Virus record (IMG/VR): IMGVR_UViG_3300029448_000194
Location: 1 to 33,198 of that record
DNA length: 33,198 bases
Origin: a virus
Direction: 5' to 3' (one strand)
Part shown: in pieces, positions 11,320-27,651 of the stretch
How positions within the stretch are numbered: position 1 is the stretch's first letter
Layout: each line of letters starts with the position of its first letter
Made by a program: the position numbers and the translations under genes
Notes under the pieces: model-generated
Told to the model about the DNA's origin: nothing
Seen by the model: the letters and a program-made list of their open reading frames with translations, nothing else
The model's database searches: none

Positions 11320-11976
11320 ATGCCAAGTTGGAAAAAACTAATTACAAGTGGTAGTGATGCCGCAATACCAAGTATATCTACAATAGGAGATTTTACTATT
11401 GATGCTGGTGGAGATATTGTTCTCGACGCAGATGGAACAGATGTTATACTAAAAGATGGTGGTACTGAATTTGGTAGTTTCAAAAGAGCATCTTCAGATT
11501 TCATTATAAAATCCGCAACAAACAATAAAGATATAGTATTCAAAGGTGAAGATAATTCATCAACCATAACTGCATTAACATTGGATATGTCCGAGGCAGG
11601 AGATGCATTATTCAATAGTGATATAAGTGGTTCTACAATCAGAGCAAGTGGTGATGTTATTGCATTTAATTCATCCGATGAAAGATATAAAGATAATATA
11701 CAACCAATATCTTCACCATTATCGAAAGTAAATAAAATAGGTGGTTACGAGTTTGATTGGAATGATAAACAAGATGTTTATGAGGGACATGATATTGGAG
11801 TTATTGCACAAGAAGTTCAAAAAGTTTTACCTGAAGTAGTTGGTGAAAAGAGTGATGGTTATTTAGGTGTTAAGTATGAGAAGATTGTACCACTATTGAT
11901 AGAATCAATTAAAGATTTATCTAAAAAAACCAAAAAATTAGAAAGAGAAATAAAAAGATTAAAGCATAAAAAGTAG
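11320..11976 (+). CDS. Tail fibre protein with C-terminal S74 self-cleaving chaperone
   Basis: The 218-residue protein begins MPSWKKLITSGSDAA, matching the start of the large fibre. A beta-rich region follows to about residue 115, then an S74 intramolecular chaperone: SDERYKDNI at 119-127 (S119 and K124 being the expected Ser-Lys dyad), the GGYEFDW strand, GVIAQEVQKVLPEVV and KYEKIVPLLIESIKDL. A lysine-rich coiled-coil tail ends it. S74 domains trimerise fibres and then cut themselves off before the serine. The cut here would fall between S118 and S119. The short shaft suggests a small fibre or spike. The ribosome binding site AAGGAG is strong. Confidence 0.88.
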   Translation: MPSWKKLITSGSDAAIPSISTIGDFTIDAGGDIVLDADGTDVILKDGGTEFGSFKRASSDFIIKSATNNKDIVFKGEDNSSTITALTLDMSEAGDALFNSDISGSTIRASGDVIAFNSSDERYKDNIQPISSPLSKVNKIGGYEFDWNDKQDVYEGHDIGVIAQEVQKVLPEVVGEKSDGYLGVKYEKIVPLLIESIKDLSKKTKKLEREIKRLKHKK

Positions 11977-15719: not shown

Positions 15720-16211
15720 GTGGCTGAATTAATAGACCCAAGTGAAATATTTTTTACCCCGTTTGAACCGAAAACGAAAAATCGTTTTATTATGTACATC
15801 GATGGTATCCCTGCATATTTAGTGAAAACGGCCAATAGACCTCAAATCACATTTGAAGAGGTTGAAATTAACCATATCAATGTTAAACGATATGTCAAAG
15901 GAAAGGGTACATGGGAACCTTTAGAAATATCATTATATGATCCAATCGTTCCAAGTGGTGCTCAAGCAGTTATGGAGTGGGTTAGACTTCATCACGAATC
16001 AGTAACAGGTCGTGATGGATATTCAGACTTCTATAAAAAAGACATAACATTTAATGTACTGGGACCAGTTGGTGATAAAGTAGAAGAGTGGCAGTTAAAG
16101 GGTGCATTCATCCAAACAGCTAACTTCAATGATTTAGATTTCGCAAATGGTACTGATGTTGCAGATATTAATCTAACACTTCGTTACGATTACGCAATCT
16201 TACAATTCTAA
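15720..16211 (+). CDS. 19: Tail tube protein (gp19-like)
   Basis: The 163-residue protein has exactly the length of T4 gp19 and sits after gp18 as in T4. Motifs fit the tube fold: PKTKNRFIMYIDGIPAYLVK (about 18-37), EVEINHINVKRYVKGKGTWEP and a final VADINLTLRYDYAIL strand. It stacks as hexameric rings inside the sheath and forms the DNA channel. It starts at GTG 15720, with AGGAG 8-12 nt upstream; no ATG lies near the conserved N-terminus. The two leftward genes split it from gp18. Confidence 0.92.
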   Translation: MAELIDPSEIFFTPFEPKTKNRFIMYIDGIPAYLVKTANRPQITFEEVEINHINVKRYVKGKGTWEPLEISLYDPIVPSGAQAVMEWVRLHHESVTGRDGYSDFYKKDITFNVLGPVGDKVEEWQLKGAFIQTANFNDLDFANGTDVADINLTLRYDYAILQF

Positions 16212-16508: not shown

Positions 16509-16523
16509 TTAGGAGATACATAA

Positions 16524-17300
16524 ATGGCAGCAGCAGAAAATCAATTCGATTTTCCTACTGAAGTTCTATCTTTACCATCAAAGGGATTATTATATCCCGA
16601 AGATAGTCCACTTCGCTCAGGAACAATCGATGTAAAATATATGACAGCAAAAGAAGAAGATATTCTAACATCTACAAACCTTATTGAAAAAGGTGTAGTT
16701 ATAGATAGACTATTGGAATCAGTAATTGTAAATGATAAAATCAAAGTAGAAGACTTACTAATTGGTGATAAGAATGCAATTATGGTTGGAACACGAGTAT
16801 TAGGTTATGGTAAAGAATATCCAGTACAGATAACAGATCCAGACACAGGTAAAACAATAGAATCTGCAGTTGATTTAACTACATTAGAACACAAGAAGTT
16901 TGACGAAAAAGTTTTTACAAATGAAAATAAATTTGAATTCACATTACCAAATTCTAAAAGAGTAATTGAATTTAAATTATTAACACATAAAGATGAACTT
17001 GAAATAGAAGAAAAACTTAAAGGTTATGATAAGGTAGAAGAGTTAACTGGAGTAAGAAACGAACTAACAATAAGACTTAAACATCAAATATTATCAGTAG
17101 ATGGTAGTACAGATGGTAAGAGTATTAGTGACTTTGTTGATAATGCATTTCTTGCACTTGATACAAGAGAGTTTCGTAAGTATGTAACTTCTATTCAACC
17201 TGATATTGATTTATCAATCAACTACACAAGTGAAACGGGTAAAGAACATAAAATACCCATTGCACTTGGGATTGACTTTTTTTGGCCAGCCGGCGACTAA
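16524..17300 (+). CDS. 26: gp26-like tail/baseplate assembly protein (short product)
   Basis: The 258-residue protein has features of the T4 gp26-like baseplate family: FPTEVLSLPSKGLLYPEDSP (about 10-29), SGTIDVKYMTAKEEDILTS, LIGDKNAIMVGTRVLGYGKEY and the C-terminal GIDFFWPAGD. In T4 gp26 is a baseplate hub assembly factor. Here the gene lies three genes upstream of the tape measure, where long-tailed phages keep their tail assembly chaperone. The zero-frame product ends at TAA 17298-17300. A T7 run at codons 252-254 followed by a hairpin suggests that some ribosomes leave this frame (see the next entry). Confidence 0.8.
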   Translation: MAAAENQFDFPTEVLSLPSKGLLYPEDSPLRSGTIDVKYMTAKEEDILTSTNLIEKGVVIDRLLESVIVNDKIKVEDLLIGDKNAIMVGTRVLGYGKEYPVQITDPDTGKTIESAVDLTTLEHKKFDEKVFTNENKFEFTLPNSKRVIEFKLLTHKDELEIEEKLKGYDKVEELTGVRNELTIRLKHQILSVDGSTDGKSISDFVDNAFLALDTREFRKYVTSIQPDIDLSINYTSETGKEHKIPIALGIDFFWPAGD

Positions 17301-17309
17301 CAGGCCGGC
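17277..17309 (+). promoter_or_regulatory. Candidate frameshift site: T7 slip run plus hairpin
   Basis: TTTTTTT (17277-17283) is followed by a 5-nt spacer (GGCCA) and a hairpin of GCCGGC (17289-17294), loop GACTAACAG and GCCGGC (17304-17309). The zero frame reads TTT TTT TGG; re-pairing of tRNA-Phe allows +1 or -2. The GC-rich stem is striking in this AT-rich genome. Confidence 0.65.
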
Positions 17310-17508
17310 AATACACGAAGAAATCTTCAGCCTAACATATTACGGCAACGGCGGGTTTACCTACCAGGCAGTGTATAATATGCCCATTCCACTAAGACGA
17401 TTCTACATTCAAAAGATAATGGATGCAGTAGAAGAACAAAAACAAGGTATGGAAAATGCACAGAAAAAATCTTCATCAACACCTCGTCCTAACTTTCAGA
17501 AATCTTAA
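17284..17508 (+). CDS. Downstream frame of gp26-like gene, probably reached by programmed frameshift
   Basis: From 17284 a second frame encodes about 74 residues: QPATNRPAIHEEIFSLTYY, NGGFTYQAVYNMPIPLRRFY and IQKIMDAVEEQKQGMENAQ, then a low-complexity tail. The protein-like sequence begins immediately after the T7 run (17277-17283) and overlaps the gp26-like stop. No ATG with a ribosome binding site exists at its head; only a TTG at 17206, preceded by noise-like sequence, is in frame. Joining the frames by a +1 slip gives a 327-residue protein, and by -2 a 328-residue one. The context matches the G/GT-type chaperones of other tailed phages. Independent initiation at ATG 17381 cannot be excluded but would discard the conserved-looking part. 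Confidence 0.7.
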   Translation, partial: GQPATNRPAIHEEIFSLTYYGNGGFTYQAVYNMPIPLRRFYIQKIMDAVEEQKQGMENAQKKSSSTPRPNFQKS

Positions 17509-17543: not shown

Positions 17544-17786
17544 ATGTCAAAAATAACAATTACAGATAAAAAACTAATACCAGAATTTGTTGGTTCATTG
17601 TTTAAAGCAATTGCAACAAAGAGAGCCAAAAAGAATGTATTAAAACAATTATCTAAAGATCCTGTAATCAAAAGAAGTATTCAGAAGATTGCACAAATCG
17701 ATAAAGAAACTCAACAATATCTTGATAAGAAAATGAAGGATCCTGAATTTAACCAAGATATGAAAGACCTCGGAATCGATTTATAA
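17544..17786 (+). CDS. Small hypothetical protein upstream of tape measure
   Basis: The 80-residue protein is helical and basic in its first half (MSKITITDKKLIPEFVGSLF, then KAIATKRAKKNVLKQLSKDP) and acidic at the end (DPEFNQDMKDLGIDL). No known motif is seen. The AGGAG ribosome binding site is good. Its place between the frameshift pair and the tape measure suggests a tail assembly accessory protein. It has no cysteine, signal or membrane segment. Confidence 0.65.
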   Translation: MSKITITDKKLIPEFVGSLFKAIATKRAKKNVLKQLSKDPVIKRSIQKIAQIDKETQQYLDKKMKDPEFNQDMKDLGIDL

Positions 17787-17833: not shown

Positions 17834-20041
17834 ATGGCAGACAATACCGGCAAGGCAAAAAGAGATTTCGAGGATATACAAAAATCCACAAAGGCCACTA
17901 ATGATTTCATTAAGGAAATGGCAAGAGAATTTCCTGATATCGTTAGTTATACCAAACAACTTGCCCAACAAATGGGTGGATACAAAAAGTTATCCGATGA
18001 TTCACTCGACACCTTAAAAAAATCAAACGACTTAACAAGAGAAATATTAGGTAATCGTAGAGATATACATAAGGAATCGTTTGCAACAAAAGATTTATCT
18101 GAATTAGAATATGAATTTCAAAGAAAAGGACTTACCAATAGAGTAAAGTTAATTCAGAAGTTAAAAGAAGAACAAAGAATTCAAAAAAATATTAATAATA
18201 AAATAAGTGCATCTGCCAATATGGCAAAAAAGTTTGGTGATAATTTATCCAATAGTGTAAAGAACATTCCATTTATAGGTGATTTCTTATCAACTGCAAT
18301 GGGATTAGATAATTTAGGTCAAGATATGGGTGACTCAGTACGAAATAGTATGGGCCCAGGTAGTAGTTTTTCTTCAAATGCATTTGCAGAATTTGCAGGT
18401 GGAACTGGTACTGATTTATTTAGAGGTAAAGAATTAAGACCAGAAGAGATATTAGATGTATCAGATTATCGTGAATATATGAAAGGTGAGGGTAAAGCTA
18501 GTGGAAAGGCATTTAAAGATTTCCAAAAGGAAGAGATGTTAAAGAGGGGTGAAAGACCTGACGGATCTAGAGCTTTTGCAGAACAGATACTTGGTGAAGA
18601 CCCTAAAAAGTTTATAGACAACCTTAATATCGGTAAAGCCATTTCAAATACTGGTCGTGGTATGGGTAAACTATTTGGAATATCATTTATACTAAGTATG
18701 TCAGCAGTACTTGTGAAGGCATTTAGTCAAGGATTATTTGCATTGGGACCCAATAATTTTATAAAGTCATTCTTACCTGGATTTAATGCATTTAAAGATA
18801 CATTTGGTGATGTAGATAAATTCAGTTTTAAGACTGCAGGAAATTTACTTGTTTCAAAAATTACATTGGGTATTGCAGCAGAAGATGCATTAAAATTAGC
18901 TCAAGCTCAAAGTGAAATATCAAATTTATCTATAGACCAGGCATTAGCTCAACAAAGAGTTACTGCAGATTATGCAAGACAACGAGGTGTAATACCAGCA
19001 GATGTTATAAAAGACTTGGCAAATAATTCACAATTGATTGCAGAGTTCACAGAAGATGGTGGAAAAAATCTTGCAATGGCTGCAGTCGAAGCTCGTAAAT
19101 TGGGATTAAGTATTAGTACTACTGCAACAATTGCTAATTCATTATTAGATTTTGAATCGAGTATTGAAAAGGAAATGGAAACATCAGTATTGTTGGGTAG
19201 ACAATTGAATCTCGAAAGAGCTCGTCAACTTGCATTTGATGGTGATATGTTGGCATTACAAAAAGAAATTGTAAACCAAGTTGGTAGTGAGGCAAAATTA
19301 AGACAAATGAGTGTTATACAACGAAGAAGTTTGGCATCAGCACTTGGTATAGAGGTACAAGATTTAAATAAACTTGCAAAAGGTGAAGTTACATTCTCAA
19401 ATGGTATTTTAGATAAAGCAGTAGAGATACTTAATAAGTATTCAAAGGCAATTATGTTTGTACTTGGTGGTACTCTTATATATGGTCTTGGTAGATTCGT
19501 ATTAGAATTAAGAGCAAATTATTTGAGTAATGCCGCAAATACTAAAGCAATAAATGCAAATACAGCTGCAATAATTGGTGGTGGTGGTGCATCAAATCTA
19601 TCATCGAGGTCGAAAACAGGCCTGACACCAGGTGGTACTTTTGATATGAGAACTAATAAAGGAAAAGCACTTTCAAGAGCTGCAAAAGTTAGTAAATATA
19701 CAAAAGGTAGTGCAGTACTATCAGGACTACCAGGATTAATGGAAGCAGGAGCCGCTGGAATGCAGGGAGATACAATGGGTGTTGCATCAGGATTAACACA
19801 GGCCGCAGGTGGAGCCGGTGGAGCAGCAATTGGAGCTGCAATTGGTTCATTCTTCTTACCAGGAATTGGTACTGCAATTGGTGGTGTAATAGGTGGATTG
19901 GCTGGAAACCTTGCAGGAGATAAAGCGGGAGATGCAATGTTTCAAAGTAAGAGTGAAGAACAATTTGGTTCAATGGTAACATCACTTGAAAAAATTAGTA
20001 ATAATACAAAAGGAATGAATGACATGGGTATGTCATATTAG
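17834..20041 (+). CDS. Tape-measure protein (gp29-like role)
   Basis: The 735-residue protein has a tape-measure layout: a charged, helical N-terminal third with coiled-coil potential (FEDIQKSTKATNDFIKEMAR onward), a hydrophobic segment (ISFILSMSAVLVKAFSQGLF, about 279-298), a second one (AIMFVLGGTLIYGLGRFVLE, about 537-556), and a glycine-rich hydrophobic C-terminus (GGAAIGAAIGSFFLPGIGTA, then IGGVIGGLAGNLAG). Such proteins set tail length and are ejected with the DNA, the hydrophobic parts helping pore formation. T4 gp29 is 590 residues. No peptidoglycan hydrolase motif is seen. Assignment rests on architecture and on the chaperone-like pair just upstream. Confidence 0.75.
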   Translation: MADNTGKAKRDFEDIQKSTKATNDFIKEMAREFPDIVSYTKQLAQQMGGYKKLSDDSLDTLKKSNDLTREILGNRRDIHKESFATKDLSELEYEFQRKGLTNRVKLIQKLKEEQRIQKNINNKISASANMAKKFGDNLSNSVKNIPFIGDFLSTAMGLDNLGQDMGDSVRNSMGPGSSFSSNAFAEFAGGTGTDLFRGKELRPEEILDVSDYREYMKGEGKASGKAFKDFQKEEMLKRGERPDGSRAFAEQILGEDPKKFIDNLNIGKAISNTGRGMGKLFGISFILSMSAVLVKAFSQGLFALGPNNFIKSFLPGFNAFKDTFGDVDKFSFKTAGNLLVSKITLGIAAEDALKLAQAQSEISNLSIDQALAQQRVTADYARQRGVIPADVIKDLANNSQLIAEFTEDGGKNLAMAAVEARKLGLSISTTATIANSLLDFESSIEKEMETSVLLGRQLNLERARQLAFDGDMLALQKEIVNQVGSEAKLRQMSVIQRRSLASALGIEVQDLNKLAKGEVTFSNGILDKAVEILNKYSKAIMFVLGGTLIYGLGRFVLELRANYLSNAANTKAINANTAAIIGGGGASNLSSRSKTGLTPGGTFDMRTNKGKALSRAAKVSKYTKGSAVLSGLPGLMEAGAAGMQGDTMGVASGLTQAAGGAGGAAIGAAIGSFFLPGIGTAIGGVIGGLAGNLAGDKAGDAMFQSKSEEQFGSMVTSLEKISNNTKGMNDMGMSY

Positions 20042-26074: not shown

Positions 26075-26767
26075 ATGAAAATAGATGTATTAGATAAGGG
26101 TTATATCGAGTTAGTAGATACACTCGGTGACGACTTAACACCAGTAAATGCCGCACGAGTTTCTTTTGGTGGTAGAAGTAAAGACTTCACAGATAAAGAT
26201 AGAAAGTTGTCCAAATTCCTAATAAAACACAAACACTTCAGTCCTTTCAGACACCAACACATTCAAGTAATTATTAAAGCACCCGAATTCGTGATGCGAC
26301 AATGGTATAAGCATGTTGTGGGTATTGAAACAACTTCAAACCATCCAACAAAAGACCATGCATGGAATGAGATTAGTGGTAGGTATGTTCCTTATGATGA
26401 ATTTTATGAACCAACAGAGTTCAGAAAACAATCAGATGATAACAAACAGGCAAGTGATGGGTTAGTTGATAATCAAAAAGAGATGAAACAATTGTGGACT
26501 ATCTCTCAACAAAATTCTATCTCTGCATATAAAGAGATGTTAAAAAATGGAATGGCAAAAGAACAAGCAAGAAGTATATTACCACTTACGGTTTATACAA
26601 AAGTTTGGTGGACTGCATCATTTCAATCAGTAATGAATTTCATTGAATTAAGAGATGAACCAACATCACAAATAGAGATACAAGATTATGCTAAAGTATT
26701 GAAAGAAATTATGTTGGAATCTTTCCCAGAAACTACTAAATTATGGAGTGAGATTTACTTAGACTAA
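26075..26767 (+). CDS. thyX: Flavin-dependent thymidylate synthase ThyX
   Basis: The 230-residue protein makes dTMP from dUMP using FAD, NADPH and methylenetetrahydrofolate. The fold landmarks are visible: FSPFRHQHIQVIIKAPEFVM (about 56-75), RQWYKH (75-80) and AWNEISGRY (96-104), then a QQNSISAYKEMLKNGMAKEQ helix with ARSILPL. In canonical ThyX the signature is RHRxxSxNExSxRY. Here the first part is K79-H80-V81 and about 12 residues (IETTSNHPTKDH) are inserted before NEISGRY. From memory some phage ThyX share this variant. AAAGG precedes ATG 26075. Its stop overlaps rimK as TAATG. Confidence 0.92.
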   Translation: MKIDVLDKGYIELVDTLGDDLTPVNAARVSFGGRSKDFTDKDRKLSKFLIKHKHFSPFRHQHIQVIIKAPEFVMRQWYKHVVGIETTSNHPTKDHAWNEISGRYVPYDEFYEPTEFRKQSDDNKQASDGLVDNQKEMKQLWTISQQNSISAYKEMLKNGMAKEQARSILPLTVYTKVWWTASFQSVMNFIELRDEPTSQIEIQDYAKVLKEIMLESFPETTKLWSEIYLD

Positions 26768-27651
26768 TGAAAGGTTGGATATTTACAACACAAAGTTCAC
26801 CATCTTACGAAACAAAAAGATTAGTTGAATGTTTTGATAAAGAGGGTATAGAATGTTTTTATGTACATCCTAATAATGTAGATATTTTTATTGACAAGGA
26901 TGATAGAAAATCAGTATTGGTTGAGAATGAATATACATCCATACCTGATTTTGTAATACCACGAGTTGGAAGTGCAACCACATACTATCAGAAGGCAGTA
27001 TTCAGACATTTAGAAAGAATGGGAGTATTGTTTATCAATGGTAGTGATGCAATTGACAATGTAAAAGATAAACTATATACAATGCAAATACTATCACAGA
27101 ATAATATTCCACATCCAAAAACTATGTTGGTTAAGAGTCCAGTTGATTCTGATTATGTACAAAAGAATATTGGGTTTCCTATTGTGGTTAAATCATTAAG
27201 TGGTACACATGGTAAAGGTGTTTATCTTGCAGAGAACAAACGAAACTTTCAACAATTAGTAGAGATGATGGAACAATTCAATGATAGGTTTAATATCATA
27301 TTACAAGAATTCGTAAAAGACTCACATGGAAAAGATTTAAGAATTATCGTAGTAGGTGGTAAAGTTATTGGAGCAATGAAAAGAGAATCAAACGATGGTG
27401 ATTTCAGAGCTAATGTTACACGAGGTGGTGGAGCAAAACCAGTAGAACTCGATGAACAAATGGAATATCTTGCATTAGAATCTACAAAACTATTAGGATT
27501 AGATATAGGTGGTGTAGATTTATTGTATGATAATGATGGATACAAAATATGTGAGGTTAACTCTTCACCTGGTTTTAGGGGAATGGAAGAATATACTGAA
27601 ATAAGAGTTGCCGAACAGATAGTTACTTATGTAAAGAATAAATTAAATTAA
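26767..27651 (+). CDS. rimK: RimK-type ATP-grasp ligase
   Basis: The 294-residue protein is close in length and layout to E. coli RimK (300), which adds glutamates to the C-terminus of ribosomal protein bS6. The pre-ATP-grasp domain has PDFVIPRVGSATTYYQKAVF and MGVLFINGSDAI. The ATP-grasp part has PIVVKSLSGTHGKGVYL (K142, glycine loop 146-151), LQEFVKDSHGKDLRIIVVGG, NDGDFRANVTRGG and the metal-binding CEVNSSPGF (E263, N265). All the expected nucleotide and Mg ligands are present, so it should be active. The substrate could be bS6, another protein or a small peptide. It is coupled to thyX and to the polymerase gene by TAATG overlaps. Confidence 0.88.
   Translation: MKGWIFTTQSSPSYETKRLVECFDKEGIECFYVHPNNVDIFIDKDDRKSVLVENEYTSIPDFVIPRVGSATTYYQKAVFRHLERMGVLFINGSDAIDNVKDKLYTMQILSQNNIPHPKTMLVKSPVDSDYVQKNIGFPIVVKSLSGTHGKGVYLAENKRNFQQLVEMMEQFNDRFNIILQEFVKDSHGKDLRIIVVGGKVIGAMKRESNDGDFRANVTRGGGAKPVELDEQMEYLALESTKLLGLDIGGVDLLYDNDGYKICEVNSSPGFRGMEEYTEIRVAEQIVTYVKNKLN

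Follow-up and report, generated by a model that had tools for sequence, protein, structure and literature searches.

The frameshift that yields the tail assembly chaperones (TACs) gpG and gpGT of lambda is conserved among long-tailed phages (Xu, Hendrix and Duda 2004; reviewed in PMC5009743), and the same review describes the G-T frameshift as widespread with T4 as an exception, together with a -2 shift in Mu and very likely a +1 shift in HSTV-2. The locus described here raises the question of whether a phage with T4-type tail genes also makes two forms of its gp26-like protein by frameshifting and, if so, in which direction the ribosome would slip. It was found in IMG/VR virus record IMGVR_UViG_3300029448_000194, of which positions 1 to 33,198 were analysed (33,198 nucleotides, hereafter the window). 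Comparison with related sequences makes it highly probable that a pair of tail assembly chaperones, TAC-N and TAC-NC, is made from this locus by a slip into the +1 frame at a run of T. The genes concerned are arranged as follows.

15720..16211, + strand: tail tube protein gene (gp19-like), matching phrog_4542 (E 2.5e-28) and PF06841 (E 1.4e-5)
16511-16515, + strand: ribosome binding site AGGAG of the gp26-like gene
16524..17300, + strand: 0-frame short product, gp26-like putative TAC-N of 258 aa, assigned from PF12322, phrog_150, the sequence and its relatives
17544..17786, + strand: ORF of 80 aa in the gap from the TAC gene to the tape measure, with an ORF of similar size at the equivalent place in L003 and Mel-JY01
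17834..20041, + strand: tape-measure protein gene, 735 aa, matching phrog_167 (tail length tape measure protein, E 1.4e-11)

The gp26-like product was assigned to its family by profile matches to PF12322 (E 9.5e-15, 55.3 bits against a curated cut-off of 24.5) and to phrog_150, the T4 gp26-gp51 family (E 8e-17). Its gene has the position expected of a TAC pair, flanked by the gp19-like tail tube upstream and the tape measure downstream, and the gaps between the three genes hold one 73-aa ORF and one 80-aa ORF, the latter (17544-17786) with a sub-threshold match to GerD only. The gene for gpG and gpGT of lambda likewise lies between tail tube and tape measure and gives short and long products with a common N-terminus, whereas the shift in lambda is -1 and the proteins belong to the lambda family, the extension here being in +1 and the family that of T4 gp26. 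Elsewhere in the window, a Peptidase_S74 domain (intramolecular chaperone of endosialidase) was found within a short 218-aa ORF (11320-11976), and a RimK-like ATP-grasp ligase gene (26767-27651, PF08443 E 4e-53), possibly encoding a protein modification enzyme, lies downstream of the tail genes. The features at the proposed site itself are listed below.

17268..17270, + strand: GGG, possible Shine-Dalgarno-like stimulator, 9 nt 5' of the second TTT, clade-restricted
17277..17283, + strand: slippery run T7, comprising TTT 17277-17279 and TTT 17280-17282 (the codon proposed to occupy the P site during the slip) followed by TGG, conserved in relatives
17284..17508, + strand: +1-frame extension of 74 codons, putative C-terminal part of the long product TAC-NC, assigned from dN/dS and homology to the cyanophage gp51 extension
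17289..17309, + strand: stem-loop GCCGGC-N9-GCCGGC, 5 nt past T7, covarying in 54 relatives, window clade only
17298..17300, + strand: 0-frame stop TAA, within the hairpin loop

The 0 frame ends GGG ATT GAC TTT TTT TGG CCA GCC GGC GAC TAA and thus gives 258 aa. The +1 frame runs uninterrupted from 17188 to its stop at 17506-17508 and covers 74 codons past the T7 run, beginning GQPATNRPAIHEEIFSLTYYGNGGFTYQAVYNMPIPLRRFYIQKI; upstream of the run it offers only GTG and TTG codons without a ribosome binding site. The fused product would comprise 327 aa after a +1 shift or 328 aa after a -2 shift. In the -1 frame, stops occur just 5' of the run and 16 codons past it, an arrangement that does not fit a lambda-type -1 shift at X_XXY_YYZ. 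These readings bear out an earlier note on this DNA, which had described a gp26-like frame reading TTT TTT TGG and stopping shortly after the T run, a second frame that becomes protein-like at T7 for 74 codons with no proper start, a GCCGGC/GCCGGC hairpin five bases downstream, and products of 258 and 327-328 aa. The T7 run is embedded in GACTTTTTTTGG, a string with a chance expectation of 0.03 per window. T7GG by itself is expected 1.57 times per window and is not unusual, so the weight of the case rests on the relatives.

Relatives were first retrieved by alignment of the gp26-like N-terminal part only, ignoring the slip site, and the extension was then located by profile. Among the best matches listed, this gave 90 unique loci, three of which end before the site; in the 87 assessable ones the extension lay in the +1 frame in 85 and in the -1 frame in two, and the profile search found no locus (0/87) with the extension in frame or missing. 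A second clade, retrieved through the extension only, had it in +1 in 69/69 unique loci among the best matches listed (each viral retrieval being the best 80 hits of larger sets, these counts describe the relatives of the query and not the whole family). The median pairwise dN/dS of the extension was 0.18, indicating purifying selection; the zero stops in its frame arise by construction and were not counted as evidence. A matching layout was recovered in the distant annotated phages Mel-JY01, immuto, SP-15, LIS04, GXN1 and RM378, none of whose deposited records carries a frameshift annotation. A prior scan for GACTTTTTTTGGCC had found 113 homologous sites among 115, a motif-selected set that was kept out of the slip-site statistics; the other two pattern matches (L078 and L084) lie in unrelated genes, and L343 was set aside as a chance match.

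By this comparison, a second product with a common N-terminus and a conserved extension in another frame is present as coding potential, as expected of a TAC pair, and the sequences give strong support to a programmed shift into the +1 frame, with the +1 site recognizable in many related, mostly uncultured phages. The programmed shift proposed in the earlier note as +1 or -2 was thereby upheld, the remaining relatives being -1. The two -1 members among the 87 have A_AAT_TTC at the site (L177 3200-3250 and L207 3200-3250), and jumbo phage LR756511 (L137) carries the extension in -1 at GGT TTT TTC, which contains the heptamer U_UUU_UUC. Judging from these three sequences, the direction of the shift appears to have changed within the gp26 family.

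A frame relation of this kind could be produced by a sequencing error or by decay of the gene, since a homopolymer indel is a common assembly error. The same relation is shared by >150 unique loci and by deposited complete phage genomes, and the relatives thus refute this explanation, whose probability is negligible. The extension could instead be a separate small protein with its own start codon, as databases annotate it (in Mel-JY01, and as "gp51" in cyanophages), and the frame is indeed open upstream with TTG and GTG codons in the window. When the homologues were searched for an independent start and ribosome binding site, 40/86 loci had no ATG, GTG or TTG from the opening of the frame to 30 nt past the site, and a start with a Shine-Dalgarno-like motif was present in just 5/86. 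Moreover, the conserved part starts at the slip site, and T4 gp51 holds both parts in one protein. A separate protein is accordingly considered very improbable, and the extension is better read as the C-terminal part of a frameshifted gp26-like product.

Conservation of the T7 slip site in the homologues, a check suggested in the earlier note, was then assessed in the N-terminus retrieval, where TTT (T/C)TT T was present in 85/85 unique +1 relatives. The codons at these 85 loci were TTT TTT TGG (49), TTT TTT TAC/TAT (26), TTT CTT TGG (8) and TTT TTT TTC (2), and the second clade had TTT TTT TGG or TTC TTT TGG in 69/69 (extension retrieval). The first Phe codon was TTT in 85/85 against 76% TTT (24% TTC) elsewhere in those genes, and in 36/36 clusters (p 6e-5). 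The base before the run is also constrained, with T in only 2/86 loci compared with 38% at nearby third positions (p 3e-15), or in 2/36 after collapse to clusters (p 2e-5). In the second clade the run was preceded by GAC in 63/69, and all four GAT cases carried TTC TTT and not TTT TTT. The rarity of T before the run and the confinement of GAT to TTC TTT both point to avoidance of U_UUU_UUU, the -1 heptamer, at the +1 sites, which is the simplest reading of these sequences.

The same variants bear on slippage of the RNA polymerase on T7, which would generate mixed mRNAs and for which a homopolymer T run can be the cause. Seven Ts are short for transcriptional slippage. The run is interrupted in TTT CTT TGG (8/85) and in TTC TTT TGG (4/69) and the extension still lies in +1; a run broken by C that keeps the frame relation makes transcriptional slippage unlikely. 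The hairpin described below, in addition, covaries in an RNA-like manner. Polymerase slippage is therefore given little credence, only marginally more than an independently initiated protein, and a slip during translation is preferred.

Which way the ribosome would move was considered by comparison with the +1 site of prfB (release factor 2), CUU_UGA_C, which has an upstream Shine-Dalgarno sequence at 3 nt. As in prfB, a P-site YUU lies over UUU and the next codon begins with UG, and the TTT CTT TGG C variants are within one base of the prfB slip string. Re-pairing of the prfB type, from UUU to UUU, is available in the window, and 85/85 relatives keep TTT at bases 5-7 of the site. Unlike prfB, the A site would hold UGG or UAC and not a stop, the GGG is 9 nt and not 3 nt from the P-site codon, and no autoregulation is implied. 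Three observations count against the +1 direction: the A-site codons UGG and UAC are not obviously slow, unlike those of classic +1 sites; TTT TTT AGT in LIS04 is a misfit with slippage on the second UUU; and a distance of 9 nt between GGG and the P-site codon comes closer to the spacing reported for backward shifts than does the 3 nt found in prfB.

The two products could instead be made by a ribosome that slips -2 as in Mu, giving DFFFGQ at the junction and 328 aa. U7 would let tRNA-Phe re-pair at -2, the strict first-codon TTT suits such a step, and the LIS04 site TTT TTT AGT fits it too, or else a slip on the first codon. Backward shifts are stimulated by signals of the kind seen here, a hairpin downstream and a GGG 9 nt upstream, and in this respect the hairpin and the GGG spacing would suit -2. 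The interrupted sites speak for the opposite direction. TTC TTT TGG (4 loci, one clade) would put tRNA-Phe on UCU after -2, whereas +1 leads to UUU or UUC; TTC TTT CGT of GXN1 likewise leaves tRNA-Phe on UCU and re-pairs well only by +1. In LR756508, TTT CTA is better matched by +1 at UUU, and TTT CTT TGG is akin to the +1 site CUU_UGA_C of prfB. On these codons a +1 step is favoured with reasonable confidence, a -2 step being unlikely but a serious possibility.

The hairpin has a predicted energy of -13.3 kcal/mol (z -2.66), with arms at 17289-17294 and 17304-17309. Its stem was 100% paired in 54 near relatives of the window, with one G-U, under a search pattern that fixed the first three 5' stem bases and left the covarying bases free. 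Three versions were observed, GCCGGC/GCCGGC, GCCGCC/GGCGGC and GCCGGT/ACCGGC, in which two pairs are altered on both sides, the covariation counts referring to sequences and not events, with few independent changes (at least two). When the partner was slid by 1-3 columns as a control, only 13-62% remained paired. The stem changes alter the protein too (QPATNRPA, QPPENRAA) yet keep the pairing, an argument for selection at the RNA level. A check of hairpin conservation, likewise raised in the earlier note, thus held, with covariation, in the window clade (54 relatives) and not family-wide; no family-wide hairpin was found in 45-nt windows, whose mean z downstream of the site was about that upstream, and no Rfam family matching the slip site was found. 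The GC hairpin is a probable frameshift stimulator of the window clade only. A second small conserved inverted repeat, GAAGA/TCTTC (window 17317-17328), lies 3' of the GC hairpin in the window clade and may reflect only the coded residues EEIF.

Three codons 5' of the run lies a Gly codon, which was GGG in 37/59 relatives and in 15/24 clusters, whereas GGG makes up 6% of the Gly codons elsewhere (p 3e-28 for the relatives). Counted by position, 44% of relatives had GGG at -9 from the first TTT. This putative stimulator was absent from the 69 loci of the second (GGWSF) clade. The hairpin and GGG look like stimulators at the level of clades, as far as their distribution can suggest, and since both are restricted to parts of the family, neither is universally needed.

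The relationship with T4 and the cyanophages clarifies what the two products would correspond to. In T4, PF12322 has matches in two proteins, gp26 (208 aa) and gp51 (249 aa), and gp51 has ~48 additional C-terminal residues filling phrog_150 positions 235-280. The annotated gp51 of S-PM2 (L260 1191-1364) and P-SSM2 (L259 1718-1891) is a 57-aa ORF directly 3' of gp26, and in S-PM2, P-SSM2, Syn9 and phiM12 the extension is in the -1 frame of gp26, at T_TTT_TTC or T_TTT_TTT. For pelagiphage HTVC008M the -1 relation was derived from the coordinates of two profile matches. L261 and L262, within the group of cyanophages, HTVC008M and phiM12, likewise have a very short "gp51" that is -1 relative to gp26. 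Sullivan et al. 2010 (PMC3037559) reported cyanophage gp51 to have only ~20% of the length of other gp51 proteins and, in the passage concerned, did not mention frameshifting. The tiny cyanophage "gp51" is probably not a gene but the C-terminal part of a frameshifted gp26.

The +1 extension aligned with the cyanophage extension along its length (hhalign 89%, 2e-6). Compared directly by HMM and profile, the +1 family and T4 gp51 matched weakly, and the link runs via PF12322, phrog_634 and the cyanophages. Like the locus in the window, the TACs of T4 and cyanophages consist of a homologous N-terminal part (PF12322) and a homologous C-terminal extension; they differ in that T4 uses two separate genes and that cyanophages, HTVC008M and phiM12 use -1, at U_UUU_UUY where the site was read, the window family having +1 with a non-U before the run. 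Equivalent short and long products thus appear to be made by a +1 shift, a -1 shift or two genes.

When the short form only was modelled with AlphaFold2 (pLDDT 88.9), the best VIA matches, though weak, were 3klu (YqbN, Z 5.2) and 2ob9 (tail assembly chaperone of HK97, Z 5.0). Both lie on residues 1-100 and are followed by rows of Z 3.2. These closest structures cover the N-terminal 100 residues only and share no detected sequence similarity with the short product; a sequence search of solved structures found none, and Foldseek with the short-form model gave no significant match (E above 1). No other known fold was among the VIA-align matches listed, which is not evidence of absence. The likeness of the modelled fold to tail assembly chaperones is suggestive only. 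A G/GT-like role of the gp26-like pair, as the earlier note had surmised, is supported by the gene position and by T4 gp26 and gp51 as short and long PF12322 members, and weakly by the fold.

The conserved out-of-frame extension, the conserved slip site, the covarying hairpin and the homology follow directly from the compared sequences. These results suggest a dual output of the gp26-like gene, in which we infer the ribosomal step, its +1 rather than -2 direction, its efficiency and the chaperone function. Most ribosomes would reach the gp26-like stop and release TAC-N of 258 aa, and some would slip to +1 at UUU-UUU-U, giving TAC-NC of 327 aa with a 74-residue C-terminal extension. For this step, peptidyl-tRNA-Phe on the second UUU likely re-pairs one base further on, with the UUU that overlaps it, while the A-site codon is still unread. 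Stimulation in this clade probably comes from the GC hairpin, which starts 5 nt after the run, with a possible contribution from the upstream GGG. Judging by homology and gene order, the two forms would act for this T4-like tail as gpG and gpGT do in lambda, as chaperones of the tape measure that, at a fixed ratio, recruit tail tube subunits. As in Mu (-2) and HSTV-2 (+1) (PMC5009743), the +1 frame would be reached in a tail-assembly gene of a contractile-tailed virus.

Part of this picture has precedents. Vladimirov, Gautam and Davidson 2022 (doi 10.1016/j.virol.2021.11.003), as cited by PMC10885494 and PMC12846349, names T4-like TAC genes; PRFect (PMC10885494) cites it for T4-like phages with one short and one long fusion gene and no frameshift, and PMC12846349 for poly-T -1 signals in the TAC-N genes of T4-like phages. 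From these citations, the identification of T4-like gp26/gp51 as TACs and poly-T frameshift sites in some T4-like phages appear to be published, and the 2022 paper may already contain +1 examples. The suggestion that such a system was undescribed for this family consequently stands only in part: as these citations indicate, the TACs and poly-T sites precede the present analysis, and the +1 direction, its slip motif, the accessory signals and the breadth seem new.

Taken across the family, it is somewhat more probable than an even chance that a T4-like superfamily shifts at a kind of +1 site not described before, UUU-YUU-U, which is preceded by a base other than U and works without a stop or a rare codon. 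On the same reading, the direction would have been switched (+1, -1) or the gene duplicated (T4), and +1 sites would be told apart from -1 sites by the base that precedes the U run. A broad set of T4-like phages would then frameshift, and in an unusual direction, in contrast to the standard statement that the TAC frameshift is general except in T4. In the deposited genomes checked, the long form is missing or annotated as a stray hypothetical gene, and a frameshifted gp26 offers an explanation for the short cyanophage gp51, ~20% of T4 gp51 in the account of PMC3037559. With +1, -1 and split-gene solutions in one family, these phages would provide a natural experiment on frameshift direction.
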